Below are positions 1,302 to 23,321 of a stretch of DNA of 64,000 nucleotides, piece after piece. The stretch's first letter is position 1. Each line of letters begins with the position of its first letter. Location: contig SLMP01000004.1 of NCBI GenBank assembly GCA_007133465.1, positions 1-64,000 of the forward strand. Direction: 5' to 3'. Position numbers and translations under genes: made by a program. A model generated the notes under the pieces. The model made no database searches. It saw only the letters and a program-made list of their open reading frames with translations, and had not been told where the DNA came from. The DNA comes from Nitriliruptoraceae bacterium (GTDB lineage Bacteria > Actinomycetota > Nitriliruptoria > Nitriliruptorales > Nitriliruptoraceae).

Positions 1302-1561
1302 GCCGGCGCGGTTTCCGAGGCACTGACCAACGTCGGGAAGCACGCTCTCGCCTCGCCGTCATCTACGCGGAACCGCAGGATCACGGGGTGTTCGTGTCCG
1401 TGCGCGATGACGGCGTGGGGTTCGACCCCGGGCGGATCCGCGAGGGGCTCGGGCTGCGGATCTCGATCCGCGACCGGCTCGCGAACGTCGGCAGCCGAAG
1501 CGAGGTCCGCAGCAACCCCTCCCGGGGGACCGAGGTGCAGCTCTGGGTCCCGCTCAGGTGA
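1302..1561 (+). pseudogene. C-terminal remnant of a sensor histidine kinase (NarL-system type)
   Basis: Only the ATPase end of a two-component histidine kinase remains. One frame from 1302 reads AGAVSEALTNVGKHA, the N-box of HATPase domains in HisKA_3-type kinases. After about 1346 the homology continues in another frame with VFVSVRDDGVGFDPG (the G1 box) and GLGLRISIRDRLANVGS, ending in LWVPLR and a TGA at 1559-1561. So the sensor and dimerisation parts are missing and the remaining tail carries a frameshift. It meets the transketolase gene tail to tail, their ends overlapping by eight bases. The loss of everything upstream probably reflects insertion or deletion events linked to the transposase debris on its left. 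Confidence 0.65.
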
Positions 1562-3515
1562 CGTCGAGCAGCGACAGCGCCTCGCGCACCACGTTGGCGA
1601 CCGAGATGCCAAGCTCCTCGAACATGACGTCACCGGGGGCGCTGGCACCGAACCGGTCGATCCCGACGCAGGCATCGGCGTAGCGGTCCCAACCGAACGT
1701 ACTGGCGGCTTCTACCGACAGCGTCGGAACCTCGGCGGGCAGCACCTGTTCCTGGTAGGCATCGGACTGTGCAGCGAAACGGTCCCAGCTGGGGAGGCTG
1801 ACCACCCGGGCCGCGACCCCCTTCGCCGCGAGCTCGTTCGACGCATCGACACACACCGTGACCTCGCTGCCCGAGGCGACGAGGATGACCTCTGGCGCCC
1901 GGTCGGGCTCGGACACGATGCCAGCACCCCGCGCCACCGCCGAACCGTCGGTCACGACCCGGATCGCCTGGCGCGACAGGACGAGCGCGGTCGGTCCATC
2001 GTGCTCGACCGCGCTCCGCCACGCCGCAACGGTCTCGTTCGCGTCCGCTGGCCGGATGACCTGGAGGTCCGGAACGGCACGCAAGGTCGCCAGGTGCTCG
2101 ATCGGTTGATGGGTCGGGCCGTCCTCACCGACCCCCACGGAGTCGTGGGTGAACGAGAAGACGATCTTCGCGCCGGAGATCGCCGCCATACGCAGCGCCG
2201 GACGGAGGTAGTCGACGAACACGAAGAAGGTCCCCCCGACCGGCAGGATCCCTCCATGACGTGCCATACCGACCAGCGCCGCACCCATCGCGTGCTCGCG
2301 GATCCCATAGTAGATCTGCCGACCACCTGGCTCAGAGGCCGTCTGCGCGACGGCATCCGTCAGCTTGACGCCGGTGTTCCCCGTCAGGTCGGCCGAGCCG
2401 GCGACCAGACCGGGCAGCTGCTCCACAGACGCGTTGATGGCCGCGTTGATCGCCTGCCGGGTCGCGGTCTGGGTGCCTTCCTCGTACGTGGGGAGCTCGT
2501 CGTCCCAGCCCTCCGGCGGGGTCGCCGACCAGCACGCAGCCCAGGCCGGGTCATCGAGCAGCTCCCGGTCTCGCTCGTCCCACGCCTCGGTCAAGGCGGC
2601 CCCACGGGCCCGGGCCCGAGTGCGCGCGTCCTCGACGACCTGCTCCGGAGCCCAGAACGGTTCGTCCGGGATACCGAGCACCTCCTTGGTCCGAGTGATC
2701 GCATCGGCATCGAAGGCGAGCCCATGCGCGGCAGGGTCATCGGTGTGGTCGGGCGAGGGGTAGCCGATGTGGCTTCGCAACACGATCAGGGTCGGGCGCG
2801 ACTCGTCCTCGCGCGCATCGAGGAGCACCTGCTCGAGCGCATCGAGATCCTCACCGATCTCACCCACCTCGCGCACGTCCCACCCGTAGGCGCGGAAGCG
2901 ACCCGGGACGTCATCGCTGCAGCTGAGCTCGAGCCCACCGTCGATGGTGATCCGGTTGTCGTCGAAGACGACGATCAGACGATCGAGCCCGAGATGGCCT
3001 GCGAGCGAGGCTGCCTCATGGCTGAGCCCCTCCATGAGGCATCCGTCACCGGCGATCACGTAGGTGTGATGGTCGATCGCATCCGGGCCGAAGGTGGCTC
3101 GCTGATAACGCTCCGCGATCGCCATGCCCACCGCGTTCGCGAGGCCCTGCCCGAGAGGACCGGTCGTGACCTCAACGCCGGTCGTGTGCCCCGCCTCGGG
3201 GTGCCCGGGCGTGCTGGACCCGAACTGCCGGAACGCTCGCAGGTCCTCGAGTTCGAGACCGTAACCCTGGAGGAACAGCGCCGAGTACTGCAGGATGGAC
3301 GTGTGGCCGTTCGACAACACGAACCGGTCTCGGTCGACCCAGTCCGGCCGCTGCGGGTCGTGGCGGAGCACCCGCGTGAACAGCACGTGGGCCAGGGGAG
3401 CCAGTGCCATCGCCGTGCCTTGGTGCCCGCTCCGCGCCGCGTGTGGCGCGTCCATGGCGAGTCCACGCATGATGCGCACGACCAGGTCGTCGTGAGAGAG
3501 GTCAGCCAGAACCAT
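1554..3515 (-). CDS. tkt: Transketolase
   Basis: Thiamine-diphosphate-dependent transketolase, a cytosolic enzyme moving C2 units between sugar phosphates (for example erythrose 4-phosphate plus xylulose 5-phosphate to fructose 6-phosphate plus glyceraldehyde 3-phosphate). At 653 residues it has the normal bacterial length. It shows the substrate-binding His in SGHQGTAM near residue 31, the GPLGQGLANAVGMA motif, the ThDP/Mg motif VIAGDGCLMEG, and the pyrimidine domain with GIREHAMGA and DSVGVGEDGPTHQPIE. The ATG at 3515 has only a weak Shine-Dalgarno sequence. It is the last gene on the minus strand of the tetritol cluster, 130 bases beyond the dehydrogenase. Together with transaldolase it would absorb the erythrose 4-phosphate made by the isomerases encoded nearby. 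A second housekeeping copy elsewhere in the genome is likely. Confidence 0.95.
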   Translation of the reverse strand: MVLADLSHDDLVVRIMRGLAMDAPHAARSGHQGTAMALAPLAHVLFTRVLRHDPQRPDWVDRDRFVLSNGHTSILQYSALFLQGYGLELEDLRAFRQFGSSTPGHPEAGHTTGVEVTTGPLGQGLANAVGMAIAERYQRATFGPDAIDHHTYVIAGDGCLMEGLSHEAASLAGHLGLDRLIVVFDDNRITIDGGLELSCSDDVPGRFRAYGWDVREVGEIGEDLDALEQVLLDAREDESRPTLIVLRSHIGYPSPDHTDDPAAHGLAFDADAITRTKEVLGIPDEPFWAPEQVVEDARTRARARGAALTEAWDERDRELLDDPAWAACWSATPPEGWDDELPTYEEGTQTATRQAINAAINASVEQLPGLVAGSADLTGNTGVKLTDAVAQTASEPGGRQIYYGIREHAMGAALVGMARHGGILPVGGTFFVFVDYLRPALRMAAISGAKIVFSFTHDSVGVGEDGPTHQPIEHLATLRAVPDLQVIRPADANETVAAWRSAVEHDGPTALVLSRQAIRVVTDGSAVARGAGIVSEPDRAPEVILVASGSEVTVCVDASNELAAKGVAARVVSLPSWDRFAAQSDAYQEQVLPAEVPTLSVEAASTFGWDRYADACVGIDRFGASAPGDVMFEELGISVANVVREALSLLDVT

Positions 3516-3645: not shown

Positions 3646-4734
3646 TCAGCCGGGGATCAAGGTCACCTTGATCGACTGGTCACCGGACTCGACGAGCTTC
3701 AGCCCCTCGTCGTACTTCTCGAGCGGGAGCTGGTGCGTGCAGATTTCGTCCATGGGGAGGTCACCCGACTCGAGCATGCGGACCGCAGCTGGCCAGCAGT
3801 GAGGGCCGAGGTGCGCACCGAGCACGTCGAGCTCCTTGTCGTCGCTGATGATCGACCAGTCGACCGTGACCTCGGAGCCAAAGACGCTGTACTCGACAAA
3901 CCGTCCGAGCTTGCGGAGCAGGTTCAGTCCCTGACCCACGGCGTCCACGTGGCCGCTGCCCTCCAGATAGACATCCGCACCGTAACCGTCGGTGAGGTCC
4001 CGCACGTACTGAACCGGGTCCTGTTGTGCGATGTTCACGGTGTGGGTCGCGCCGCACTTCTTGGCGAGTTCGAGCTTCGCGTCGGCGAGATCGAGCGCGA
4101 CGACGGCCGCTGGCGACTTCGCTGCCGCTCCGGCGATCATGCCGAGGCCGATGGGGCCGCAGCCAGCCACGACTACGACGTCCTCGAAGCGGATCGACCC
4201 ACGCTCCACGGCATGCAGCGCGCACGACAGCGGCTCTGCGAACGCTGCGTGTTGCGGTGCGATGTCCTTGGAGATCTTGTGGACGCGCGACGTGGGCGTG
4301 TAGACCATGTACTCGGCCATCCCACCGGGAGCGACGCGCTTGAACCCATACATGTCGTGAGGGCCGCACATCCAGTACTCGCCGCGACGGCAGTACCGAC
4401 ACACATCGCACGGGACGATCTGCTCGGCGACCACTCGATCGCCGACATCAACACCCCACCGGGAGCTGGCGACATCGTCGATGGTGACGATCTCGCCCGT
4501 GAACTCGTGCCCGGGGATGACCTGGGACTCGGTCCATGCCGGTCGGTTCTCGTCGCCCCAGAACTTCGGCGCCCCGTGGTACGCCTTGAGGTCGCTGGCA
4601 CAGATTCCGACTGCCTCGACCCGCACCAGCGCTTCGCCCGGGCCCGGGGTCGGAACCGGAACCTCCTCGAGTCGGTAATCACCTGGTCCGTGAACGACAA
4701 CCGCTTGCATCGCCTCCGGCAGTGTTCCAGCCAT
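3646..4734 (-). CDS. eltD: Zinc-dependent polyol dehydrogenase, probable erythritol/L-threitol dehydrogenase
   Basis: Medium-chain zinc alcohol dehydrogenase expected to oxidise a C4 polyol to erythrulose with NAD. The 362-residue frame shows catalytic zinc ligands Cys45 (GICASD) and His76-Glu77 (PGHEF), a structural zinc set at Cys109, Cys112, Cys115 and Cys123 (CDVCRYCRRGEYWMC), and a Rossmann GCGPIG at 191-196. The ATG at 4734 is chosen over an upstream in-frame start at 4797 because GGAGA lies just before it. The tetritol assignment rests on context: a DAK-type kinase, a TIM-type and an RpiB-type isomerase in the same cluster match the EltD pathway known from Mycobacterium smegmatis. The class is certain; the exact substrate is inferred, and xylitol, ribitol or another polyol is possible. 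A TAGAGT -10-like hexamer on the minus strand lies at 4796-4801. Confidence 0.8.
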   Translation of the reverse strand: MAGTLPEAMQAVVVHGPGDYRLEEVPVPTPGPGEALVRVEAVGICASDLKAYHGAPKFWGDENRPAWTESQVIPGHEFTGEIVTIDDVASSRWGVDVGDRVVAEQIVPCDVCRYCRRGEYWMCGPHDMYGFKRVAPGGMAEYMVYTPTSRVHKISKDIAPQHAAFAEPLSCALHAVERGSIRFEDVVVVAGCGPIGLGMIAGAAAKSPAAVVALDLADAKLELAKKCGATHTVNIAQQDPVQYVRDLTDGYGADVYLEGSGHVDAVGQGLNLLRKLGRFVEYSVFGSEVTVDWSIISDDKELDVLGAHLGPHCWPAAVRMLESGDLPMDEICTHQLPLEKYDEGLKLVESGDQSIKVTLIPG

Positions 4735-4833
4735 CTCGCCTTCTCCGCACTCTTGGTTCGACCCGAGGAGCTCCGTCGGGACGCAGAACGCTCTCACTCT
4801 AACACCCGCGAGAGACAGAAACCACCCCTTGGC

Positions 4834-5623: not shown

Positions 5624-7192
5624 ATGACGGACAACTCAGCAGCTGTGGTCCTGCGTGCCGTTGGCATCGCCAAGTACTACGGCGGTGTGAAAGCGCTGCG
5701 AGGAGTCGACTTCGATGTCCGAAGCGGGCAGGTCACCGTCCTGTTCGGCGAGAACGGGGCGGGCAAGTCCACGCTGATGAAGATCCTGGCGGGTATCGAG
5801 GAACCGACGGCCGGACATCTCGAACTCGACGGCGAGCGGATCGAGTTCGCATCCATCGATGACGCCGTCGAGCGCGGCATCTCGATCATCCACCAGGAGC
5901 TGAACCTCTACCCGAACCTGAGCGTCCGGGACAACATCTTCGTCGGCCGCGAGCTCCGGAGCTGGCTGGGCCAGATCGACTACGCCCGCGAGAACGAGAT
6001 TACCCGGGAACTCATGACGCGCCTGGAGCAGCACGACGTCGAGCCTACGACCATGGTCCGAGACCTCACGATCGGGCAGCAACAGATCGTGGAGATCGCA
6101 CGCGCGCTCGCCACGGACGCACGCATCCTGATCATGGATGAGCCGACCTCGGCCCTGAGCCGGAGCGAGGTCGAGGTCCTCTTCTCGGTCATCAACGAGC
6201 TGACCGGGCGGGGCGTCGCGATCGTCTACATCTCGCACCACCTCGAGGAAGCCATCTCCGTGGCCGACCACGGGATCGTCTTCCGGGACGGTCGGCTCGT
6301 CGCGGCCGAGACTGCCGACAAGATCGACCTCGCATGGGTCGTCGCGAAGATGGTCGGAAGGAAGGTCGGGCGGGACTTCAAAGGAGGGCCGCGTCGGTTC
6401 GGAGACGTGCAACTCTCGATCGAGAACCTGTCCGTCGGTGATCCACTGGGAAGCTCACGACTGCTCGTGGACAACGTCTCCTTGGAGGTGCGGGCTGGCG
6501 AGGTCGTGTGCCTGTACGGCCTCATGGGTGCGGGGCGAACCGAGCTCATGGAGGCGCTCGTTGGCCGGATGCCGGTCGTCGGCGGACGGGCGGTCCTCAA
6601 CGGCGAGGAGCTCGCGGGCATGTCCGTGCGCGCCCGTATGGTGAAGGGGATGGGCCTTGTCCCCGAGGATCGCCAACGTGATGGGCTCGTGCAGTTGCTG
6701 TCGGTGGGCTCCAACCTCTCACTGAGCACGATCTTCACCTTGGTCCGGCGGATGCTGATCGCTCGTGACCGTGAACGCGAAGAGATCGAAGAGATGATCG
6801 AGTCCGTTCGGATCCGAGCAGCCGCGGACGATATGAAGACCGCGATCCAGCTGCCGGTCACCTCCCTCAGCGGCGGGAACCAGCAGAAGGTCGTCATCGG
6901 CAAGGTCCTCATGACCTCGCCGACCCTGCTGCTGCTCGACGAGCCGACGCGTGGGATCGACGTCGGGGCGAAGGACGAGATCTTCAACGTCATGTTCTAC
7001 CTCGCAGCTAAGGGGCTCGCCGTGCTGTTCGCGACCTCCGAGATCGGTGAGGCGATGGCTGCATGCCACCGGCTCATCGTGATGTCACGCGGACAGTTCG
7101 TCGCCGAGTTCGACCCCAGGACGGCTGCTCGCGATGATGTGGTCGCCGCCACCGGTGGCAGCACGGCACCCGTGCGAAGGGGCGTTGCGTGA
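5624..7192 (+). CDS. Sugar ABC transporter ATPase, RbsA/EryE type (two ABC domains)
   Basis: Energy-coupling subunit of a ribose-type (CUT2) sugar ABC importer, bound to the inner face of the membrane permease. It carries two complete ABC modules in 522 residues. The first has Walker A GENGAGKST at 42-50, an LTIGQQQ signature and Walker B ILIMDEPTSALS. The second has the characteristic altered Walker A GLMGAGRTE, LSGGNQQKV and LLLLDEPTRGIDVG. The ATG at 5624 follows GAGGTGGGAG. It is the only transporter ATPase in the cluster. The permease, lipoprotein and DUF2291 genes are on the opposite strand 7-10 kb away, so it must pair with them in trans. The next gene on its own strand is the isomerase/binding-protein fusion. 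Confidence 0.93.
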   Translation: MTDNSAAVVLRAVGIAKYYGGVKALRGVDFDVRSGQVTVLFGENGAGKSTLMKILAGIEEPTAGHLELDGERIEFASIDDAVERGISIIHQELNLYPNLSVRDNIFVGRELRSWLGQIDYARENEITRELMTRLEQHDVEPTTMVRDLTIGQQQIVEIARALATDARILIMDEPTSALSRSEVEVLFSVINELTGRGVAIVYISHHLEEAISVADHGIVFRDGRLVAAETADKIDLAWVVAKMVGRKVGRDFKGGPRRFGDVQLSIENLSVGDPLGSSRLLVDNVSLEVRAGEVVCLYGLMGAGRTELMEALVGRMPVVGGRAVLNGEELAGMSVRARMVKGMGLVPEDRQRDGLVQLLSVGSNLSLSTIFTLVRRMLIARDREREEIEEMIESVRIRAAADDMKTAIQLPVTSLSGGNQQKVVIGKVLMTSPTLLLLDEPTRGIDVGAKDEIFNVMFYLAAKGLAVLFATSEIGEAMAACHRLIVMSRGQFVAEFDPRTAARDDVVAATGGSTAPVRRGVA

Positions 7193-7419
7193 ACGGTTCT
7201 GCCGACGGCGGGCATGCCGATCGCTACGTGACTCCCCGTCGACCGGCTACGGGCACGGCGGTCGAAGGCAGAGACCGATGCATGCAGCCGACCCGTTCGC
7301 GCGACGGCAGGAGCACGGCTCGCGGCTGCGTCGGACCTGCGACGCGGACCGGGTGAGCCATCGTCGAGCACGTCGCGAGTCCAGCCAGCGAGGTTCAACA
7401 GCAACGCAAAGGTCGACAC
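7193..7419. other. Intergenic region after the ATPase
   Basis: In ribose-type transporter operons a permease gene normally follows the ATPase; here only about 230 bases lie before the fusion gene. A frame starting GTGA at 7189 overlaps the ATPase stop and runs for about 55 codons, but it is Arg/Thr-rich with no membrane segment and matches nothing I know. I treat it as non-coding. Confidence 0.5.
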
Positions 7420-8856
7420 ATGGAGAGCCAGTTCCGGATCATCGTCGGATCGGATGAGGCGAGTTCCGCGCACAAGAACGCGATCCTCGCTGATCTGCAG
7501 CGGGATCGACGCGTCGCATCCGCTTCCGATATCGACAATTCCGAGCGCCGTGAGGGGCACGAGAGCTGCCACGAGATCGGGATCGCCGCAGGGCAGATGA
7601 TCGCGTCCGGACGTGCCGATCGCGCGGTCCTGGTCTGCCGCTCGGGGGTCAGCGCGGCGGTCGCAGCCAACAAGGTCCGCGGTATCCGCGCAACGGTGGC
7701 GCACGACCCCTACTCCGTCGAGCGGTCCGTGGTCGAGGCCGACTGCCAGATCCTCGTCCTCGGCGAGCAGGTGGTGGGGCTCCAGCTCGCCCGACGGCTG
7801 GTCAGTGACTGGCTCGAACACCGCTACGACCCGTCGTTGGCCTCGGCAGCGTCGGTGGACGCGATCACCGACTACGAGCAGTCGGCCGTCGACGACCTCC
7901 AGACGCCCGCACACCGCACGGGTGCAACGCGCACGGCGTCCAGTTCCCCGCGCACCGGGGCCGGGCGTGGCGGCCGCAAGATGGCGATCATCACCGTCGA
8001 TCCATCGAATCCCTACTGGCGGACCGAGATCCGCACTGCGGTGGAGGTAGCGACGGAACTCGGCTTCGACACCACCGCCAACGCGCACAACGGCGACCCC
8101 AACCTGCAGGAGCGCTACATCAACGCCGCGATCCGCGCACGCGTCGATGCGATCGTCCTCGATCCCGCCGGTGCGGCCGAGAGCGTCGAGCCGGTCGAGC
8201 GGGCCCTGGATGCCGGGATCCCGTCGTTCCTCGTCAACGCCGCGATCGCCGTCCAGGGGATCGCGAAGTCCCAGATCCGCTCCAACAACTCCCAAGGTGC
8301 CGCGCTCGGTGCCCGCATCTGGGCCGAGGCCATGGAGGGGGAAGGCACCTACGTCGAGCTGTTCGGGAACCCCACGGACTACAACGCCCGTGCGCGCTCC
8401 AACGCCTACGCGGAGGTCCTCCAGGAGTTCCCCGGCCTCCAGTGGCTGCAGATGGAGACCGCGAACTGGAACCGCGCCCAGGGCAAGCAGCGGATGGCGC
8501 TGATGCTGCGCGCGCACCCCGACGTCGACGGCGTCATCGCAGGCAACGATGAGATGGCTCTCGGAGCGATGGAGGTGTTGCGGCAGGCCGGACGTCTCGA
8601 CGACGTGCCCGTCCTCGGCTTCGATGGGAACCCCGAAGCGGTCCAGGCGGTCCGCTCCGGTGAGATGGTCGCAACGGTCCTGCAGCCCGTGATCCAGATG
8701 TCCAAGCTGGCCGTGGAGCAGGCAGATCGCTTCCTACGCACCGGTGAGACGGGCGCTGACGAGGAGCAGGTCCTCGACACGGCCCTCATCACCCCGGACA
8801 ACGCCCACCTCCTCGAGGACTTCATCCTGCGGGGCGAAGCCGACAGCCAGGAGTGA
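7420..8856 (+). CDS. RpiB-like isomerase domain fused to a sugar-binding periplasmic-type domain
   Basis: Two-domain protein of 478 residues with no signal peptide or membrane segment, so it should be cytosolic. Residues 1-157 are an RpiB/LacAB fold closely resembling the stand-alone RpiB of this cluster (shared ANKV, GIRA, PYSVERS, LGEQVVGLQLAR). The active-site loop is altered, however: the catalytic Cys73 is kept but CGTGLG has become CRSGVS, GSDDAGY is GSDEASS, and the downstream Asn pair of the active site is replaced (SNNC to EADC). A Ser/Thr/Gly/Arg linker spans about 158-186. Residues 187-478 are a Peripla_BP_4 sugar-binding domain about 60 percent identical by eye to the cluster lipoprotein, keeping ITVDPSNPYW, GNPTD, ETANW and GNDEMALGA. 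AAAGG precedes the ATG. Likely a sensor or regulator that reads free and phosphorylated sugar; a catalytic role is less likely. Function unknown. Confidence 0.85.
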   Translation: MESQFRIIVGSDEASSAHKNAILADLQRDRRVASASDIDNSERREGHESCHEIGIAAGQMIASGRADRAVLVCRSGVSAAVAANKVRGIRATVAHDPYSVERSVVEADCQILVLGEQVVGLQLARRLVSDWLEHRYDPSLASAASVDAITDYEQSAVDDLQTPAHRTGATRTASSSPRTGAGRGGRKMAIITVDPSNPYWRTEIRTAVEVATELGFDTTANAHNGDPNLQERYINAAIRARVDAIVLDPAGAAESVEPVERALDAGIPSFLVNAAIAVQGIAKSQIRSNNSQGAALGARIWAEAMEGEGTYVELFGNPTDYNARARSNAYAEVLQEFPGLQWLQMETANWNRAQGKQRMALMLRAHPDVDGVIAGNDEMALGAMEVLRQAGRLDDVPVLGFDGNPEAVQAVRSGEMVATVLQPVIQMSKLAVEQADRFLRTGETGADEEQVLDTALITPDNAHLLEDFILRGEADSQE

Positions 8857-8995: not shown

Positions 8996-9889
8996 TCACC
9001 CGAGGGCGGCGAGCTCATCGGCGCGGTGCATCGACGGCTGCGCACCCAGACGACTCGCCGCCGCTGCTCCCGCGCGCACGGCGAACTCGACGGCCGTGCT
9101 CACCACGGTGCCGCGGGCCAGCTCTCGTGCGATGGCTCCTCGGAACGCATCGCCCGCGCCGGTGGTATCGACCACCGTGACACGCGGAGCCGGAACCTGA
9201 TGGCTCCCCCGATCATCGATGAGCAGCGCGCCTCGCGACCCTAGCGTGACGATCACCGCCCTCGGCGAGCGGCCCAGCGACTCCCGTAGGCGAGCAGCCC
9301 GCTCGACGTTGCTGCCCTCATCGGGGACCAGCTGCTGAAGCTCGACCTCATTGGGGATCAACACCCCTACGAACTGCAGCATCTCGGGGGGGACCGGCCG
9401 CACAGGAGCCGGATCGAGCTGCACGAGACCCCTTGCCGCGCGCGCCGCCTCCAGGTTGACCTCGCTCGATACCTCCTGCTGCAACGCGACGACCCTCGCG
9501 GATCCGATCAGTCCCGTTGCCCCACGGATATCAGCAACAGCCAGGCGACCGCTCGCTCCCGGTGCCACGATGACGCGGTTCTGACCGCCGCCGTCGACCG
9601 TCACCACAGCTATCCCCGTCGGAGCTTCGGGATCCACGTGGAGATGTTGTAGGTCGATGCCGTCCCGAGCGAGATCCTCGCGGACGAGATCACCATCAGG
9701 ATCGGAGCCGACACGGCCGACCAGCGAGACCGCCGCACCGAGCCTCGCTGCTGCGACAGCCTGGTTGGCGCCCTTCCCACCGCCCACAGAGCTGGCTGCG
9801 GTGGCCAGGATGGTCTCGCCCTCCGACGGGTGGTGCGGCACCTCCAGAACGAGGTCGCGGTGGACGCTGCCGACCACGACGACATCCAT
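8996..9889 (-). CDS. rbsK: Ribokinase-family (PfkB) sugar kinase
   Basis: ATP-dependent carbohydrate kinase of the ribokinase/PfkB family, cytosolic. The 297 residues carry the N-terminal GGGKGANQAVAAARLGA signature (37-53) and the C-terminal DTTGAGDAF signature (241-249), with the catalytic base Asp247. Length and motif spacing match ribokinase. The ATG at 9889 follows GGGGGAGG. It lies 150 bases downstream of transaldolase on the same strand and converges with the fusion gene. In this cluster it may phosphorylate ribose or a tetrulose rather than fructose; the sequence does not decide this. The tetritol pathway itself can run with the DAK-type kinase alone, so this enzyme may add a side substrate. 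Confidence 0.85.
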   Translation of the reverse strand: MDVVVVGSVHRDLVLEVPHHPSEGETILATAASSVGGGKGANQAVAAARLGAAVSLVGRVGSDPDGDLVREDLARDGIDLQHLHVDPEAPTGIAVVTVDGGGQNRVIVAPGASGRLAVADIRGATGLIGSARVVALQQEVSSEVNLEAARAARGLVQLDPAPVRPVPPEMLQFVGVLIPNEVELQQLVPDEGSNVERAARLRESLGRSPRAVIVTLGSRGALLIDDRGSHQVPAPRVTVVDTTGAGDAFRGAIARELARGTVVSTAVEFAVRAGAAAASRLGAQPSMHRADELAALG

Positions 9890-10040: not shown

Positions 10041-11168
10041 TCAGGTCGCCGCGGCGTCGAGGGATGCCTGAAGATCCGACAGCATGTCGGCCCAGGAGTC
10101 CTTGAAGGCAGCGACACCCTGGCGCTCGAGGGTCTCGACCACGTCGTCGTAGTCGACCCCGACCTCGGCCAGTTCCTGCAACGTCCGGGAACCTTCCTCC
10201 AGGTTCGGGGTGATGGCATCACCCTGGAACTCCGCGTGATCGATGACCGCGTCGAGCGTAGCTTCCGGCATGGTGTTGACCGTCTCCGGGGCGACGAGAT
10301 CGACCACGTACCGAGTGTCGTCGTACGCGGGATCCTTCACGCCGGTGGAGGCCCAGAGTGGGCGCTGCACCGTCGCTCCCGCGGCCTGGAGTTGCTGCCA
10401 ACGTTCGGAGGCTCGCATGGCGAGGAACCGGCTGTACGCGACACGTGCGTTCGCGATGGCTGCACGGCCTCGCAGCGCAGCGGCGCGGTCGTCCTCCAGC
10501 GCATCCAGGCGCCGGTCGACCTCGGTGTCCACCCGCGACACGAAGAACGAGGCGACGGAAGCCATCTTGGACAGGTCATACCCGGCTAATCTCGCGGCCT
10601 CCATGCCGGCGAGGAACGCGTCCATCACGAGCTCGTACCGCTGCACGGAGAAGATCAGCGTGACGTTGACACTGATCCCCTGCGCTAGACACGCGGTGAT
10701 GGCCGGGAGCCCTTCGAGGGTCGCCGGGATCTTGATCAGCAGGTTCGGGCGGTCGACCAGCCACCACAACGCGCGCGCTTCGGCGATGGTCGCGGCGGTG
10801 TCGTGCGCAAGTCCTGGATCCACTTCGATCGAGACGCGCCCATCGACGCCACCTGACGAGTCGTACACCGGACGCAGTACATCGCAGGCCCAGCGCACGT
10901 CGTACGCCGTTAACGAGCGGACGGCTTCCTGCAGGTCGACGCCCCGCAGGGCAAGGTCGGAGATCTGCTCGGCGTACGCGTCGCTACCTGCGAGCGCCTT
11001 CTGGAAGATCGTGGGGTTCGTGGTCACGCCGACGACACCGCGGTCACGCAGGTCGGCGAGACCACCGCTGCTCAACCTGGTGCGACTGATGTCATCCAAC
11101 CAGGCGGAGACGCCCTGGTCAGCGAGCGTGGCTAGGGCAGGATCGGGCTGTCTTGACGGTGTGGGCAC
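10041..11168 (-). CDS. tal: Transaldolase
   Basis: Class I aldolase of the pentose phosphate pathway that moves a dihydroxyacetone unit between sedoheptulose 7-phosphate/glyceraldehyde 3-phosphate and erythrose 4-phosphate/fructose 6-phosphate. The 375-residue length fits the long actinobacterial transaldolases (TalB-like type 2). Seen motifs: [12 protein letters not shown] (47-58), the Schiff-base Lys146 in [15 protein letters not shown] and the C-terminal [17 protein letters not shown] block. The start is a GTG at 11168 behind GAGGGAGCCA. It follows the RpiB isomerase gene by about 120 bases on the same strand. Paired with transketolase at the far end of the cluster, it would convert erythrose 4-phosphate from tetritols to central intermediates. 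Confidence 0.95.
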
Positions 11169-11291: not shown

Positions 11292-11801
11292 TCACGCTTC
11301 TGCGGAAGCCTGCAGCTTGCGCTCATAGGCTCGGATGCGTTCGACCTTCTCCTCCGAAGGGGACGAGGGGTCGAACACGTAGCCGAGCCACTGCCGCGCG
11401 AGCAGGCGTGCGAGCTCAAGCCCGATGACCCGCTGGCCGAGGGCCAGGATGTGGCAGTTATTGGAGAGGATGGACCGCTCGACACTGTAGGAGTCGTGGC
11501 CGACTGCAGCCCGGATCCCGGGCACCTTGTTCGCAGACATCGCCACACCGAGGCCGGTCCCACAGATAAGCACCCCCCGATCGGCCTCGCCCGCCATGAT
11601 GGCTTCGCCGACCCGAACCGCAACGTCGGGGTAGAGCGTGCGCTCATCCTCCTGGACGCCCATGTCACGGACCCACTCCACACGCGGGTCGTTCTCGAGA
11701 TCATCGAGCAGGGCCTTGCGGTACTCGTAGCCCGCATCGTCCGAGCCGATCACGATACGGAACCGTGGGCTCGCGCTGGCCGCTTCGGCTTCTGCGCTCA
11801 T
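11292..11801 (-). CDS. derI: RpiB/LacAB-family isomerase, probable D-erythrulose-4-phosphate isomerase
   Basis: Cytosolic aldose-ketose isomerase of the RpiB family, expected to convert D-erythrulose 4-phosphate to D-erythrose 4-phosphate (EryI of Brucella, DerI of M. smegmatis). The 169 residues keep the full active site: GSDDAGY, YPDVA, the catalytic Cys80 in LICGTGLG, SANKVPGIRA, HDSYSVERS and SNNCHILALG. At about 165-170 residues it is slightly longer than ribose-5-phosphate isomerase B. Its ATG overlaps the stop of the kinase gene by four bases (ATGA), with GAGGAGGGG as ribosome site inside the kinase gene, so the two are translationally coupled. This coupling is the main reason to prefer the tetrulose-phosphate role over ribose 5-phosphate. 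Confidence 0.85.
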   Translation of the reverse strand: MSAEAEAASASPRFRIVIGSDDAGYEYRKALLDDLENDPRVEWVRDMGVQEDERTLYPDVAVRVGEAIMAGEADRGVLICGTGLGVAMSANKVPGIRAAVGHDSYSVERSILSNNCHILALGQRVIGLELARLLARQWLGYVFDPSSPSEEKVERIRAYERKLQASAEA

Positions 11802-13531
11802 CGGTCACACCCCTCCTCATCGAGAAACGCTCCAACCTCGGTCAGGAGCATGGCCATCGAGATGGCACCCGGGTCGGGCGTGCCGACACTGCGCTCTGCC
11901 AACGGGCGCGCACGACCCACCTTGGGCGTGAGGTCAGCCGTCGCCTTGGCCTCATCGGTGGCGTGCTCCGCGGCCGCCTTCCATGCGGACACGATCGCAC
12001 CACCCTCACTGATCAAGGACTCGAACCGGTCAACGAAGGGGATCAGGGCGTCGAGCATCGTCTTGTCGCCGCGCCGTGCTCCCCCGATGCGCTGCAGGTC
12101 ATCGGATGCGCGACGGACTGCCGCGACCAGTCGCGGCCCATCAACGGGCTCGACATCACCGAACTCGGTCCCGATCGCAACCAGCACGGATCCCCACAGG
12201 CTGCCACTGGTGCCGCCGGCCCGGTCGCCGAACGCCGCTCCCGCTTCGATCAGGACGGTTCCTGCTCCGCCATGGGTCTGCTCGCCTGCCTCCGCGGCCG
12301 CACCACAGCCTCGCACCATCCCGACGCCATGGTCTCCGTCACCGGCGATCGCGTCCAGACGTCCGAGCTCCGTCTCCGCATCACGCATCGTGGCGGCCAT
12401 GCGAGCGAGGACACCCCGGACGATCCCAGCGACCTGGAGGGATGCCTCCGTCGCTTCGCCGGTCGCTCCCAACGCGGAGCCCGCGTCCTCGTCCTCACGG
12501 GTCACCGGCTCGAATCCGACGACCTCGGCCGCGTCCCCACGGCGGAAGGCGACCGAGTGGGCCGGTGCGCACCAGAGGGTCTCGAGCTCCTCATCCAGCC
12601 ACGTCAGCGACAGCGAGCACCCTGCCATGTCGAGGCTGGACACGAGCTCACCCACCTCGGCCATCACCGGCTCGACACCGGCTTCCTGGAGAAGTCGGTA
12701 GATGTCGCCGTAGAGCACGAACAGTTCCTCGTACTTGGTCGCGCCCAGCCCGTTCACGACCACGGCAGCGCGTGACCCGCTGTCCTCCGGCCGCTCCTCC
12801 AGGAGCCCTTCCACGAGCATCTGCGCGAGCTCGCGAGCTGACATCATCGGCTTGGTGCTGATCCCCGGCTCTCCATGGACACCGAGGCCAAGCTCAAGGG
12901 TTCCTGGTTCAACGGTGAAGAGCGGCTCCGACTGTCCGGGGAAGGTGCAGCCGCTGAAGGCCACACCCAGGGAGTACGTGGCATCGTTGGCGGCCTGCAT
13001 CACCCGCGCAACATCATCGAGGGCGTAGCCAGCATCGACGGCGGCGCCACCGACCTTGTACACGACGACCGTGCCGGCGATGCCCCGACGCTTGTCCTTC
13101 TCCTCCAGCGACGCGGAGGCGATGTCGTCGGTGACGTACACGATACGGGTGTCGATGCCCTCCGCGATCAGGCGTTCTCGTGCGGCTCCGAAGTTCAGAC
13201 GGTCACCCGCGTAGTTCCCGAAGGACAGGACGACGCCGGCACCTCCGTCAGCGGCCTTCGCCACCCGGTAGATCTGCTCCGTCGACGGCGAGGTGAAGAT
13301 GTCTCCGAGCACGCAGGCATCCGCCATGCCGACCCCGACGATGCCTCCGTAGGACGGGTAGTGCCCCGACCCGCCACCGACGACCAGGCTGACCTTGCCG
13401 GCCATGGGGCCACTAGCGCGGATGAACCCAGAGGCGTTCGGCACCTTGGTGACGTACCGACCGAACGCGGCGGCGAACCCTTGTATCGCCTCGGGACGGA
13501 AATCGGCGGGGTCGTTGAAAACGTGGGTCAT
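11798..13531 (-). CDS. DhaK-DhaL fused tetrulose (erythrulose/dihydroxyacetone-type) kinase
   Basis: ATP-dependent kinase of the dihydroxyacetone kinase family with both domains in one 577-residue chain. The DhaK domain (about 1-340) has GGGSGHYPSYGG in place of the usual GGGSGHEPAHAG and the substrate-binding His219 in GVHGEPG. The DhaL nucleotide domain (about 365-577) has Mg-binding Asp393, Asp398 and Asp400 in LDAIAGDGDHG. M. smegmatis uses this family as D-erythrulose 4-kinase (DerK) and L-erythrulose 1-kinase (LerK); with both RpiB and TIM isomerases present, one or both substrates are plausible. AGGAGG lies just before the ATG at 13531. The gene is 39 bases after the regulator and overlaps the isomerase by four bases. 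Plain dihydroxyacetone kinase is the alternative. Confidence 0.85.
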   Translation of the reverse strand: MTHVFNDPADFRPEAIQGFAAAFGRYVTKVPNASGFIRASGPMAGKVSLVVGGGSGHYPSYGGIVGVGMADACVLGDIFTSPSTEQIYRVAKAADGGAGVVLSFGNYAGDRLNFGAARERLIAEGIDTRIVYVTDDIASASLEEKDKRRGIAGTVVVYKVGGAAVDAGYALDDVARVMQAANDATYSLGVAFSGCTFPGQSEPLFTVEPGTLELGLGVHGEPGISTKPMMSARELAQMLVEGLLEERPEDSGSRAAVVVNGLGATKYEELFVLYGDIYRLLQEAGVEPVMAEVGELVSSLDMAGCSLSLTWLDEELETLWCAPAHSVAFRRGDAAEVVGFEPVTREDEDAGSALGATGEATEASLQVAGIVRGVLARMAATMRDAETELGRLDAIAGDGDHGVGMVRGCGAAAEAGEQTHGGAGTVLIEAGAAFGDRAGGTSGSLWGSVLVAIGTEFGDVEPVDGPRLVAAVRRASDDLQRIGGARRGDKTMLDALIPFVDRFESLISEGGAIVSAWKAAAEHATDEAKATADLTPKVGRARPLAERSVGTPDPGAISMAMLLTEVGAFLDEEGCDR

Positions 13532-13570: not shown

Positions 13571-14395
13571 TCAGACCGGGGGTGCGATCTCGTACTCGAC
13601 GCCAGCGCTTCTCCACTGCTGCAGGGTCTGTTCATCGGCTCCCTGATCCGTGATGACGCAGTCGAACTCCGTGAGCGTGGCGATGTTGTGAAGCGCGACC
13701 CGGCGGAACTTCGAGCTATCGAGAAGCAGGTAGCGCTTCATCGAAGCGTCCATCATGGCGCGCTTGACCGCGACGATCCGTTCCTCCTGGTGGAACGCAT
13801 CGACCCCGCAGACGGCGGACGTCGACATGAACAATGCGTCGGCACGCATCCGGGTGAGCTGGTCGAGGCAGTGCAGACCGATGAAGGCGTCGTGCGAATG
13901 GTCGTACATCCCCCCGATGCCGACGATGGTCAGACCTGCTTCGACCGAGTGTTCTGCCAGACCGACGATCGCACGCACGAAGTTGGTGACGATGTGGAGC
14001 GGGCCCACCTGGTCCAGTCCTTGGACCATCTGCAACCCGGACGTCGAGTCGTCCAGCATGATGGACATGCCGGGGTGCACGAACCTCAAGGCCACCGCTG
14101 CGATGGCCTTCTTCGCGGCGGTATTGGCCTTCATGCGGAACGGGAGCTGTGACTCGAAGACCCCCGAGGGCTGCACCGTGACGCCGCCGTGGAACTTACG
14201 CACCACCCCACGGCGCTCCAGTGCATCGAGGTCACGGTGGATCGTCATCAGACTGACGTTGAACAGCTTCGCGAGGTTCTGTGGAGAGGAGTCACCGACG
14301 TTGAGCAGGTGCTCGGTGATCCTCGACTGACGGTCGGCCTTCGCGGCTCCTTGGCCTGGCTCCAGCCCGGGTGATTGACCGTCACCTCGCAACAT
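13571..14395 (-). CDS. DeoR-family transcriptional regulator
   Basis: Sugar-phosphate-responsive regulator of the DeoR/GlpR family. The N-terminal winged helix (about residues 15-70) shows the family pattern SLMTIHRDLDALERRGVVRK. The C-terminal DeoRC sugar-phosphate sensor fold follows, with LDDSTS, IVTNFVRAI, GIGGMYD and the KRAMMDASMKRYLLLDSSKF stretch. The ATG at 14395 is preferred to one six codons upstream because GAGGGAG sits right before it. The gene lies between the transporter genes and the kinase/isomerase genes, all on one strand, so it may be part of one long transcript. It most likely represses the cluster until a tetrulose phosphate or erythrose 4-phosphate binds. The motif near 4842 and 17660 is a candidate target. 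Confidence 0.9.
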   Translation of the reverse strand: MLRGDGQSPGLEPGQGAAKADRQSRITEHLLNVGDSSPQNLAKLFNVSLMTIHRDLDALERRGVVRKFHGGVTVQPSGVFESQLPFRMKANTAAKKAIAAVALRFVHPGMSIMLDDSTSGLQMVQGLDQVGPLHIVTNFVRAIVGLAEHSVEAGLTIVGIGGMYDHSHDAFIGLHCLDQLTRMRADALFMSTSAVCGVDAFHQEERIVAVKRAMMDASMKRYLLLDSSKFRRVALHNIATLTEFDCVITDQGADEQTLQQWRSAGVEYEIAPPV

Positions 14396-14506
14396 GCGAC
14401 TCCCTCGAGACATCTCTGAGGCAGCAGGGCCGCCTCGGGTGGGACCGAGGGCCGCCGGGGCGGGGTGGGGGCACCCGACCCGGCGGCCTCGTCGAACGCT
14501 CGGATG

Positions 14507-15535
14507 CTACTGGAGGCGGAACGCAGACAGGTTGGCGACGTTGTCGGAGGTGATCAGCGTGCAGTCGATCGCCTGCTTCTCCGTGTCAGCACCCGTCTCT
14601 CCCGTCCTCAGGTAGTTGTCCATCTGCTCGACGGCCAACTCGGTCGCGCGAACGATCGGCTGCAGCACGGTGGCAACCATCTCGCCGGCGGCCACGGCAG
14701 CAGCTGCATCGTCGTTCCCGTCGAAACCGAGGACGATGACGTCGTCCAGCATTCCTGCCTCACGCAGCGCCTCGATAGCGCCCAGGGCCATCTCGTCGTT
14801 GCCCGAGATGACGCCGTCCATGTTCGGGTGCGCCTGGATCAGACGGTCCATCTGCTCCTTGCCCTGGACCCGGTCCCAGTTCGCGGTCTCCTGCTGCAGC
14901 AGCTCCATGTCCGGGTACTGGGACAGGACGCCCGCGTATGCATCCGAACGGACCGGCGCGTTGTTGTCGGTCGGGTTCCCGAACAGCTCGACGTAGGTGC
15001 CCTCGTAGTTCATCGCCTCGGCGAAGGCCTCGGCTCCCAGGGTGCCACCCTGAGCGTTGTTCGAGACGATCTGCGACTTCGCGATGTCCTGCTCGGCCAA
15101 CTCCGCGTTGACGAGGAACGAGGGGATGCCTGCGTCAAGAGCCTTCTGGACCGCACCAACGCTCTCCTCTGCCCCAGCCGGGTCGAGGATGATCGCCTGG
15201 ACGCCGGCGCTGATCGCCGCGTCGATGAACTGGTTCTGGGCGTCCGGGTCGTTGACGTGCGCGTTGGTCACGAAGTCGTAGCCGAGAGCCGCTGCCGTCT
15301 CCTCAGCGACGTCCACCTGGGTTGACCAGTAGGGGTTGGACGGATCGACGGTGATGATTGCGATGGTCCCGGGGACGTGGTCGCCCGCCGGAGCCTCAGC
15401 CGCGTCCTCGTCCTCTGTTGCCTCGTCGGTGGGCTCGTCGCTGTCGACCGGCTCCTCGCCGTTGTCACCACCACATGCGGTAGCGACGAGCGCTAGCGCC
15501 ATGAGTAGCGCTGCGGACTTCTTCATGTACTTCAT
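14507..15535 (-). CDS. Sugar-binding lipoprotein of the ABC importer (EryG/RbsB-like)
   Basis: Extracytoplasmic substrate-binding protein of a ribose-type importer, anchored by a lipid. A short positive N-terminus (MKYMKKS), a hydrophobic core and the lipobox LVATAC place the lipidated Cys at residue 21. An Asp/Glu-rich spacer (about 22-52) follows, then a Peripla_BP_4 domain to residue 342 with IAIITVDPSNPYW, ILDPAGAEES, GNPTDNN and GNDEMALGA. GAGGAGAGGG precedes the ATG. It lies 52 bases after the permease on the same strand. Ligand is inferred from context as erythritol or threitol. Its binding domain is closely matched by residues 187-478 of the fusion protein at 7420-8856, evidently a paralogue. 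Confidence 0.92.
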   Translation of the reverse strand: MKYMKKSAALLMALALVATACGGDNGEEPVDSDEPTDEATEDEDAAEAPAGDHVPGTIAIITVDPSNPYWSTQVDVAEETAAALGYDFVTNAHVNDPDAQNQFIDAAISAGVQAIILDPAGAEESVGAVQKALDAGIPSFLVNAELAEQDIAKSQIVSNNAQGGTLGAEAFAEAMNYEGTYVELFGNPTDNNAPVRSDAYAGVLSQYPDMELLQQETANWDRVQGKEQMDRLIQAHPNMDGVISGNDEMALGAIEALREAGMLDDVIVLGFDGNDDAAAAVAAGEMVATVLQPIVRATELAVEQMDNYLRTGETGADTEKQAIDCTLITSDNVANLSAFRLQ

Positions 15536-15587: not shown

Positions 15588-16715
15588 CTAGGAAGCCGGA
15601 GCTGAGACCTCCACACCGTCGCCTGAACCGGTACCGCCAGCGTCCTTCTGTTTCTTCCTCTCGCCCGAAAGGCGCCCACTCGCCATGAGCTTCTGTTGCG
15701 CCTGGTCGAGTGCCACCGCCAGGATGATGACGACACCGGTGATGACCTGCTGCCAGAACACCGACACACCGACCAGCACGAGACCCGTCACCAGGAAGCC
15801 GATGACGAACGCACCGATCAACGTGCCTCGAACCGTCCCTCGCCCGCCGGACAGGGCAGCGCCTCCGATGACCACCGCCGCGATGGCGTTGAGCTCGTAG
15901 AGTTGGCCTGCCCGGGGTGTCGCCGCGACCAGGTCTGCTGTCAGCAGCAACCCGACCAGTCCGGCACCCAACCCCGAGAGCACGTAGGCACGCGTGACCA
16001 CCATCTGCACCGGAACACCCGAGAGCTCGGCGGCACGAGGGTTGCCCCCGATCGCGTAGAGCCACCGTCCGTAGGGCGTGCGGTTCAGCAGGATGGAGGC
16101 GAGGATCGCAACAACCAGCATCACCAACACCGGAATCGGGATGTTCAGGAGCCGACCACCCGCCACGGTGAGGAACCCGGTGTTGCCGAGCGCTGGGTCA
16201 CCCCTGAGCTGCGTGAAGGTTCTCCCGTCGCTGATGACGAGCGCCATCCCTCGAGCAGCGAAGAGCATGCCGAGGGTCGCGATGAACGGCGCGACGTTCA
16301 GTCGCGCGATCACGAACCCGTTGAGCCACCCGACGAAGGCTCCGACCGCCAGCGAGAGGATGATGACCACCCACACGCTCGGATAGGCCACCAGCTCCGT
16401 CAGTGGAACGTCGTAGCCCTCCAGGAACGTCCCAGCGATCACCCCTGTCAGCCCGACCGTGGAACCGACGGAGAGGTCGATGCCACCATGCAGGATCGTG
16501 AGGAGCATCCCGGTTGCGACGATGGCATTGAACGCGACCTGCCTGGTCATGATGATCAGGTTCTCGGTCGCCAGGAAGTTGGGCGAGAGCGACGCGAAGA
16601 TGATGATGATGACGATGAGGGCAACGAACGCTCGCCCCTCAACCATGATCTGGGTGATCCGGCGGCGGCGAGCCTCGCGAGCTTGCGCGTCGGAGTCTGC
16701 TGTGGTCGCGGTCAC
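15588..16715 (-). CDS. Sugar ABC transporter permease (RbsC/EryF-like)
   Basis: Membrane-spanning channel subunit of the ribose-type importer. The 375 residues hold about 8-10 hydrophobic helices, starting with ALIVIIIIFASLSPNF, and the family motifs NAIVATGMLLTILHGGIDLS, RTPYGRWLYAIGGNPRAA and GRGTVRGTLIGA. The start is taken as GTG at 16715 because a perfect AGGAGG lies six bases before it; the frame is open further upstream, including an ATG at 16754 without a good ribosome site. The gene sits between the DUF2291 gene and the lipoprotein on one strand. Its ATPase partner must be the gene at 5624 on the other strand, since no ATPase gene is in this operon. The C-terminus is unusually Lys/Gly/Ser-rich. 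Confidence 0.92.
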   Translation of the reverse strand: MTATTADSDAQAREARRRRITQIMVEGRAFVALIVIIIIFASLSPNFLATENLIIMTRQVAFNAIVATGMLLTILHGGIDLSVGSTVGLTGVIAGTFLEGYDVPLTELVAYPSVWVVIILSLAVGAFVGWLNGFVIARLNVAPFIATLGMLFAARGMALVISDGRTFTQLRGDPALGNTGFLTVAGGRLLNIPIPVLVMLVVAILASILLNRTPYGRWLYAIGGNPRAAELSGVPVQMVVTRAYVLSGLGAGLVGLLLTADLVAATPRAGQLYELNAIAAVVIGGAALSGGRGTVRGTLIGAFVIGFLVTGLVLVGVSVFWQQVITGVVIILAVALDQAQQKLMASGRLSGERKKQKDAGGTGSGDGVEVSAPAS

Positions 16716-16929
16716 TCGTTGCCTCCTATCGCTACTGCCAGCAGCGATCGACATGGGCCCTGCCCGGTGCCGATGGCGCAGGGCACGCCGGCCGTGGGGT
16801 TGGGTTGGGAGAAGCTGATGCCATGACGTACTCGTACGAGGCGCAACCTGCCCTGACGAACTCCCGTGCTGTGCAGCCGGGCGGTTCCGGTGCTCGGTCC
16901 CAGCAGTAGCGATCCCTCGGGGCCGCCGC

Positions 16930-17577
16930 TCATGCGTTGATGTCGATGCGCACCGGCTGGATGACGAAGGTGTCCGGTGGCCCGCCCTGGAGCCATGCCC
17001 CGACGACGGAAATCTCCTGCCCTTCGGCGCCAGCAAGGTCCAGCGGAGCGATCACCTCGTCGAGCATGAGCTGACGGAACTCGTTCGCGACGTCCTGGTA
17101 CTGGGTCTGATCACGGAAGTCTCCGAAGGCGACCGTCCCGGACGCGTCCCGGATGGGGGTTCCGTTGACTGCGGTCGTCAGCGGAACCCGCACGTCCAGG
17201 TCCGGATCGTCGGCGATGGCGATGGTGATGAAGTCATCGGTGACCTCACTGACCTCGCCCACCGCGGAGAGCGCGAACCCGTACCGGCCGCTGCCGAGAT
17301 CGACACCGAACTCCTCTGCGCCCGCCTCGGGGTCGTCGCGGAGCGCAGCTCCAACCCGGGCGACGTCGACCGCGGTCTCCTCGTAGACCTCAACGAGCTC
17401 GGGGAAGGCGAACGTGGCGTACTCCTCCGCCGAGAACTCAGCGGCACCCCGCGCGAGCGCCTCTTCTGGACCGATGAAGGTCGTGTCCCAGATCATCACA
17501 ACGATGAGGACGACGAACGCGCCAAGGTACGGGAGGCGCTTGATCAGAACATCCGGTGAAACCTTCAACCCAGACAC
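16930..17577 (-). CDS. DUF2291-type membrane-anchored protein of sugar transporter operons
   Basis: Secreted or anchored protein with one N-terminal membrane segment (about residues 16-32, LGAFVVLIVVMIW) and an extracytoplasmic remainder of roughly 180 residues. The pattern and location fit DUF2291, a family of unknown function found next to ribose-type sugar ABC genes, probably as a transporter accessory. No lipobox Cys is seen. The frame opens with GTG at 17577, but the SD-like GGGAGG overlaps that codon; a TTG three codons inside (17568) has better spacing and may be the true start. It is the first gene of the minus-strand transporter unit, followed by a 214-base gap and the permease. Confidence 0.7.
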   Translation of the reverse strand: MSGLKVSPDVLIKRLPYLGAFVVLIVVMIWDTTFIGPEEALARGAAEFSAEEYATFAFPELVEVYEETAVDVARVGAALRDDPEAGAEEFGVDLGSGRYGFALSAVGEVSEVTDDFITIAIADDPDLDVRVPLTTAVNGTPIRDASGTVAFGDFRDQTQYQDVANEFRQLMLDEVIAPLDLAGAEGQEISVVGAWLQGGPPDTFVIQPVRIDINA

Positions 17578-17722: not shown

Positions 17723-18535
17723 TCACGTCCCTGGCAGCCTGCGCGCCTGCGCGGCGATCTCGATCAGCCGTCGCATACCCGCAGCGTCCCACGCTGCGCG
17801 GCCGACGAAGACGCCGTCGACACCGTCGGCCGTGACCAGCTCACTGATGTTGTCTGCATCCACGCTCCCGCCGTAGAGCACCGCGCGGAGCCGCCCCGTG
17901 GAGCTGAGCGCCGACGCCACCTCATGGATCGAATCGAGCACCGGCGTGACCTCCGGCAGGGTCGCGGCGCGGCCGTGTTCCCCGATCGCCCAGACCGGCT
18001 CGTACGCGACCATCGCACGGGCGACCTCGGTCGGATTTAGGCCCGAGAGCGCTGCAGCGACCTGACTTGCGACGAAGTCGCGAGCCCCGCCGGCGACGCG
18101 GATCTCGTGGCTCTCTCCAACACAGACGAGCGGTAGGAGCCCCGAATCGACCGCGGCACGGACCTTCCACGCGATCCTCTCATCGGTCTCCCCGAAGGCC
18201 GCACGGCGCTCGGAGTGGCCCAACTCGACGATGCTCGCACCGGCGTCTCGAACCATCCGCATGGAGACCTCACCGGTCGCCGCTCCGTCCCTCGCCCAGT
18301 GCGCGTCCTGCGCACCGAGGAGGACGGGAGAGTCCTGCGGCAGCGCGTTGGCGACGGCGAACAACGCAGTGTGTGCGGGCAGCACGAAGACCTGCATCCC
18401 CGAAGGGATGTCGACGGTGAGCAGCTGCTCGACGTAGGCGAGGGCTTCGCCGATCGTCTTCGTCATCTTCCAGCTGGTACCCAGCCAGAGGGCCGGCTCG
18501 TCAGCGCGGCTCCGTTGAGAGGAGAATGTCTGCAT
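17723..18535 (-). CDS. lerI: Triose-phosphate-isomerase-like tetrulose-phosphate isomerase (LerI/EryH type)
   Basis: TIM-barrel isomerase of about 270 residues. The catalytic set is intact: Lys23 in GTSWKM, His107 in ELGHSER and Glu179 in AYEPVWAIG, with the phosphate loop LYGGSV. Ordinary triose-phosphate isomerase has GNWKMN at the start; GTSWKM is characteristic of the erythritol-pathway isomerases EryH and LerI, which convert L-erythrulose 1-phosphate to D-erythrulose 4-phosphate. The ATG at 18535 is preferred to a GTG four codons upstream because GGTGGAG lies seven bases before it. It is the outermost gene of the cluster, on the same strand as the transporter operon and about 145 bases before the DUF2291 start. 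Confidence 0.88.
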   Translation of the reverse strand: MQTFSSQRSRADEPALWLGTSWKMTKTIGEALAYVEQLLTVDIPSGMQVFVLPAHTALFAVANALPQDSPVLLGAQDAHWARDGAATGEVSMRMVRDAGASIVELGHSERRAAFGETDERIAWKVRAAVDSGLLPLVCVGESHEIRVAGGARDFVASQVAAALSGLNPTEVARAMVAYEPVWAIGEHGRAATLPEVTPVLDSIHEVASALSSTGRLRAVLYGGSVDADNISELVTADGVDGVFVGRAAWDAAGMRRLIEIAAQARRLPGT

Positions 18536-18547
18536 CTTGCGCTCCAC

Positions 18548-22999: not shown

Positions 23000-23210
23000 G
23001 ACGTCAGCGGACCAGCCGCTGGTCCGGCAACTGGAGCGGCCACCACCCCGCCGGCCAGCCTGTCGCGGTCGTCCGGTGAACCCGCTGCCGTCGCGTCGTC
23101 GGCCACCCTCGGCTCCTCCGCCGCGGCGGTCGCCGCTGGGACGAGGTGTCACGAGAGCACGAAGGTGCGAGCCACCGACGCCCGTCGGGGGGTAGCGTCC
23201 GGCACGAAAC

Positions 23211-23320
23211 GAGCGGGGACGGACGCCACGGGCCGAGCGGGGACGGACGCCACGGGCCGAGCGGGGACGGACGCCACGGGACGAGCGGGGACGGACGCCA
23301 CGGGACGAGCGGGGACGGAC
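23211..23320. repeat. 24-bp tandem repeat, about 4.6 copies
   Basis: Four full 24-base units begin at 23211, 23235, 23259 and 23283, followed by 14 bases of a fifth. Units 1-2 differ from 3-4 at one position (GGGCC versus GGGAC). One frame encodes repeats of AGTDATGR. The array ends two bases before the TTG start of the YihY-type gene, so its last unit lies where the ribosome site should be. The unit is too short and has no spacers, so it is not a CRISPR. Confidence 0.9.
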
Positions 23321-23321
23321 G

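Follow-up and report, generated by a model that had tools for sequence, protein, structure and literature searches.

We identified a gene that joins an RpiB-like pseudo-isomerase, through a linker, to a CUT2-type sugar-binding domain predicted to be cytosolic. The gene occupies positions 7420 to 8856 of the plus strand of the window (the whole stretch of 64,000 nucleotides that was analysed) and encodes 478 aa. We tentatively propose that its product is a dimeric cytosolic sensor of free imported sugar that exerts feedback on the ATPase of the importer.

The fusion gene and the surrounding cluster

Open reading frame calling in the 64-kb window gave a single frame of 478 codons with zero internal stops, and a Shine-Dalgarno-like AAAGG (7408–7412, +) lies 7 nt 5′ of its ATG. 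The RpiB-like half comprises residues 1–157 (7420–7890, +), and Pfam LacAB_rpiB (PF02502) matched residues 7–148 (E 2e-27, 96.3 bits against a gathering cut-off of 24.7). Residues 158–186 (7891–7977, +) form a low-complexity linker rich in R, T, S, P, G and A, predicted to be disordered, for which no clear origin was found. The sugar-binding (SBP) half comprises residues 187–478 (7978–8853, +) and matched Peripla_BP_4 (PF13407) at residues 189–442 (E 1e-51, 176.2 bits against a gathering cut-off of 35.1). The protein scored below the equivalog cut-offs of TIGR02133 (118.9 of 168.2 bits) and NF051858 (98.6 of 240 bits). An AlphaFold model built on a 21-sequence alignment contained two confident domains with a disordered stretch (residues 137–181) between them (mean pLDDT 84, pTM 0.64). 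The reading frame, the Pfam matches and the model thus agree with the preliminary description of one uninterrupted RpiB–linker–SBP gene. In both halves GC3 was similar to that of the neighbouring genes (RpiB, 0.85; SBP, 0.89).

In both sequence and model the RpiB fold starts immediately at the N-terminus, its first strand running from residue 5. Neither an export signal nor a lipobox was found on reading the sequence, whereas exported SBP relatives carry one. These features support a signal-less, cytosolic protein, and the absence of a signal peptide had already been noted. No DNA-binding domain or HTH was detected in the fusion with Pfam and NCBIfam.

The fusion lies directly 3′ of a CUT2 ABC transporter ATPase gene (5624–7192, +; identified by ORF, Pfam and cluster comparison), from which it is separated by a 226-nt gap (7193–7419, +). 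A GTG overlapping the ATPase stop at the 5′ edge of this gap weakly suggests that a downstream gene was lost there; the gap had no significant similarity and no clear origin was found for it. A PfkB/ribokinase-family kinase gene (8996–9889, −) is convergent with the fusion. The minus strand also carries genes for a transketolase (1554–3515), a zinc-dependent polyol dehydrogenase (3646–4797), a transaldolase (10041–11168) and a dihydroxyacetone-kinase (DAK) family sugar kinase (11798–13531), all four assigned, like the PfkB-type kinase, with Pfam and NCBIfam. A DeoR-family regulator (13571–14413, −; Pfam) and a LerI-like TIM-family isomerase (17723–18547, −) are also encoded. Both halves of the fusion have close relatives in the cluster, as previously stated: a standalone DerI-like RpiB-family isomerase with intact active-site residues (11292–11801, −; Pfam, NCBIfam and residue comparison) is 43% identical to the first half, and an exported lipoprotein SBP (14507–15535, −; ORF, Pfam and identity) is 64% identical to the second. 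The permease of the same importer (15588–16790, −, start approximate) and a DUF2291 lipoprotein, a usual member of the operon (16930–17577, −), follow. Both halves of the fusion are too diverged from the two standalone genes for it to be an assembly chimera of them.

D/L-threitol and erythritol are degraded through a dehydrogenase, an erythrulose kinase and TIM-like and RpiB-like isomerases to erythrose 4-phosphate, which is passed to transaldolase and transketolase. The gene set and these pathways make a tetritol or tetrulose a plausible substrate of the cluster.

The ATPase gene stands between the DUF2291 and permease genes in the sister genus (genome G006) and in nearly all of about 25 clusters read. 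In the window this slot (16790–16930) is empty, and the gene is found on the opposite strand, directly 5′ of the fusion. It is the sole close match in the genome, the remaining CUT2 ATPases being 34–41% identical, and presumably it therefore serves the permease at 15588–16790. At 6829–6852 the window ATPase carries an insertion of six residues, immediately N-terminal to its second LSGG signature, that the aligned relatives lack.

Transposase-like remnants lie on either side of the cluster, with HTH and DUF6431 ORFs on the left (84–1103) and a piece of a DDE transposase on the right (19002–19715). A 24-nt tandem repeat (4.7 copies, 97%) is present at 23209–23321, in a region with overlapping reading frames on the two strands.

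Sequence constraint and origin of the two halves

The catalytic and substrate-contacting residues of RpiB, including the phosphate contacts, are established (PMC4783025, PMC3755991), and the active site combines residues of two subunits (PMC3755991). We used the position list of PMC4783025; the carry-over of its numbering to the fusion is our own. The RpiB half alters 12 of the 47 columns that are invariant in 21 standalone relatives (12, 34, 35, 43, 67, 68, 71, 99, 100, 110, 129 and 137 in E. coli numbering), and the literature positions are enriched among them (Fisher p 0.001). The changes in the active site are G67R, T68S, G71S, 99 to Glu, N100A, R110Q and 137 to Ser. CGTG has become CRSG (plus Gly78 to Ser) and SNN/SND has become EAD, in accordance with the reported loss of the CGTG loop and the Asn pair. 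Cys73 (the Cys66 equivalent, reported as kept), Asp12 (the Asp9 equivalent) and the scaffold positions are retained. In comparison with the RpiB/DerI-type isomerases (PF02502; closest solved structures 3qd5 and 3sdw), the fold is the same, but the anion-hole loop and the 99/100, Arg110 and 137 equivalents are lost and an SBP is attached.

Both half-sites of the RpiB dimer are altered in the fusion, and the phosphate-contacting 110 and 137 equivalents are Gln and Ser. These substitutions support the view that the RpiB half is a catalytically inactive pseudoenzyme. As the contributions of both subunits are damaged, a normal active site is to be expected neither in a homodimer of the fusion nor when it pairs with the standalone isomerase. 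The preliminary description had the dead isomerase read sugar phosphate, which is unlikely because both half-sites and the phosphate ligands are altered. RpiB proteins are dimers. The RpiB half has the appearance of a scaffold, and the simplest role that we infer for it is dimerisation.

The SBP half is 64% identical to the window lipoprotein and 61% identical to the G006 lipoprotein. It best superposes on 4ry0 of Rhizobium etli (TM 0.97 by target, 44% identity, E 1e-32 by fold), the closest solved RbsB-like SBP of the CUT2 type, with which it shares the entire fold; unlike such proteins, it is joined to RpiB and has no signal or lipobox. While the SBP half and the window lipoprotein differ at 104 of about 285 residues, the pocket positions of the lipoprotein family are kept at all 15 sites, which were mapped with an RbsB sequence and a list of its pocket residues. 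An intact pocket for free sugar is supported by this agreement, in line with the earlier reading. Only 10 of the 96 columns invariant in 24 lipoproteins are altered, whereas 94 of the 177 columns that vary among them are (Fisher 5e-13). Pairwise dN/dS was about 0.35 for the SBP half and 0.14 between lipoproteins, rough numbers given the high dS. Judged by these comparisons, the SBP half is under purifying selection that is weaker than in the lipoproteins but real.

At two ribose-pocket residues, 4ry0 and RbsB have Asp-Arg, whereas the window SBP family, including the fusion, has Asn-Ala; a ligand other than ribose is therefore likely for this family. The fusion SBP is only distantly related to 4rs3 and 4rsm, which bind threitol in M. 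smegmatis.

The lipoproteins of the window and of G006 share 87% identity, and the SBP half was placed as sister to this pair (support 83/85). A clade of the SBP half and the window lipoprotein alone was rejected (AU p 0.007). Since the SBP half branches outside the two lipoproteins, the SBP duplication appears to be older than the split from the sister genus, unless the tree is misled by rate effects. A sister relationship between the RpiB half and the window RpiB was likewise rejected (p 0.004). The branch of the SBP half was 0.63 and that of the RpiB half very long (1.58), and part of this divergence may be relaxed constraint. Identity to the G006 counterparts was 63% for the window ATPase and 74% for the permease. 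A remnant of a second cluster fits these data, but the ATPase tree is indecisive, as it joins long branches. The ATPases of the window, of G006 (L027 1345–2982) and of the actinobacterial MAG Soudan_30 (L035 6220–8754) have branches of 0.6–0.76, against a median of 0.11 elsewhere.

An independent signal-less SBP in Soudan_30

We searched for the same architecture in other genomes. No further RpiB–SBP fusion was found in 101 relatives, 66 genomes of the class and 397 genomes of the phylum (whole-genome searches covering roughly 400 actinobacterial genomes), nor in plasmids, phages or 20 genomes that encode this SBP. The expectation that such chains would occur in many independent genomes was thus not borne out. 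The best plasmid matches for RpiB and SBP were separate neighbouring genes, and viral contigs gave no match in a single-protein scan. Two SBP motifs guided a scan across 85,000 species genomes, so that fusions with other SBPs can escape it. Long open frames around some SBP matches in GC-rich genomes were overlap artefacts and were left uncounted. We found no publications on RpiB–SBP or ATPase–SBP fusions in the open literature.

A different arrangement was found in Soudan_30 (G106, the same genome as G454; 99% complete). The ATPase of its orthologous cluster is one 845-codon frame starting from GTG (L035 6220–8754 on G106:C14; also L038), in which a complete SBP domain is inserted in the C-terminal tail. 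Both NBDs are intact, and the signal-less SBP forms residues 535–787, between ...GQFDPMTG and TREDIMAASGE.... The normal lipoprotein SBP is encoded two genes after it. The inserted domain is 78% identical to this lipoprotein, and the two were sisters in two trees (100/96 and 99/95). It shows a dN/dS of 0.16 and retains all mapped pocket residues. Among 20 whole genomes with this SBP, two adjacent SBP copies occurred in Soudan_30 only. No other ATPase–SBP fusion was found in 247 and 61 genomes or among the plasmid matches listed. The two arrangements are thus each known from one MAG, that of the window being 2.77 Mb in 174 contigs and 88.7% complete.

A single origin of both cytosolic SBPs was disfavoured, as their common clade was rejected (p 0.02); by this test the two arose independently. 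Four lipoprotein-invariant columns (295, 321, 325 and 406) are altered in both (hypergeometric p 0.002). V325 and D406 are invariant even among distant actinobacterial lipoproteins, whereas 295 and 321 vary in more distant exported SBPs. The shared altered positions V325 and D406 may be surfaces needed only for docking to the permease from outside.

Possible role in feedback on sugar uptake

The fusion could instead be a relic, in which a duplicated cluster eroded and copies of rpiB and of the SBP gene were brought together by a deletion, leaving a functionless, decaying product. Its occurrence in a single genome, the long branches of both halves, a dN/dS above that of the standalone paralogues, the lost active site and the transposase-like debris on either side of the cluster are in favour of such decay. 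We nevertheless consider it unlikely, though a serious alternative, as the frame is intact over 478 codons and has a ribosome site, the pocket is complete and the invariant columns are spared. The SBP copy, moreover, appears older than the genus split, and another lineage has an independent signal-less copy.

A metabolic scaffold or buffer is improbable in our assessment. Cytosolic sugar would be kept by the SBP half close to the active isomerase or the kinase, and the RpiB half would form a mixed dimer with the standalone protein (11292–11801). Scaffold residues are retained, both paralogues lie in the same cluster, and mixed dimers are known in the RpiB family from LacA/LacB (PMC3755991), whose RpiB-fold subunits likewise miss parts of the active site. 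The LacA/LacB subunits, however, give complementary halves of one site, whereas the fusion is damaged in both, so that neither site of a mixed dimer would be undamaged. The RpiB half shares just 43% identity with the standalone isomerase, and the SBP in the Soudan_30 ATPase would be left unexplained.

Slightly less probable still is a transcription regulator lacking a DNA-binding domain of its own, the ligand-bound fusion acting on the DeoR protein or another regulator. The LacI-family regulators, whose ligand-binding core is likewise SBP-derived, cytosolic and dimeric, show that the fold can be used as a cytosolic sensor, and a DeoR gene is present in the cluster. The fusion differs from them in that its partner is an isomerase fold and a DNA-binding domain is missing; a DeoR link is not conserved, and in the independent case the association is with the ATPase. 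The preliminary description had suggested that the fusion gates either the ATPase or the DeoR regulator: a link to the ATPase gains indirect support from the SBP in the Soudan_30 ATPase, while no evidence was found for action on DeoR. An internal start at Met187, an ATG exactly at the start of the domain, giving a free cytosolic SBP domain besides or instead of the fusion, is very improbable, as no convincing ribosome site precedes it (GGCGGCCGCAAG), the frame continues through the linker, and there is a ribosome site at the upstream start.

We therefore return to the sensor proposed at the outset, which we hold as a tentative reading. A cytosolic SBP meets only sugar that has already been imported, because it is inside the cell. 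The SBP half would close on free sugar, probably a tetritol or tetrulose, that has arrived in the cytoplasm, and the inactive RpiB half, which would neither isomerise nor bind sugar phosphate, would be the dimerisation platform. Ligand occupancy would then be passed on to the importer, with the CUT2 ATPase encoded directly 5′ as the most likely recipient. As one SBP is borne by the ATPase (Soudan_30) and the other is encoded beside it (window), we propose that the relay is feedback on uptake, following the logic of trans-inhibition, and inhibition would be expected rather than activation. In MetN and ModC, C-terminal cytosolic domains of the ATPase bind the imported substrate and block cycling or inhibit transport (PMC10710835). 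The proposed logic is common to MetNI and ModABC, and the Soudan_30 domain likewise lies in the C-tail of the ATPase. The proposed sensor differs in being a copy of the importer's own SBP, and in the window it is on a separate chain, on a dead isomerase, as the fusion and the ATPase are separate genes with no covalent link, in contrast to Soudan_30.

With a little more reserve, we suggest that some importers recruited a duplicate of their own SBP as a cytosolic feedback sensor at least twice independently, once within the tail of the ATPase and once carried by a dimer of a dead isomerase. The feedback idea can be tested directly on the SBP embedded in the Soudan_30 ATPase. If the idea is correct, one type of pocket would sense the substrate on both sides of the membrane, with outside and inside detectors of equal specificity, and the importer would gauge its own success through a second, internal copy of its binding protein. 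The substrate feedback of ABC importers known for MetN and ModC would be extended to CUT2 sugar importers, and the fusion would illustrate how an isomerase can be converted into the scaffold of a sensor. It would also provide a natural design for sensing sugar in the cytosol.
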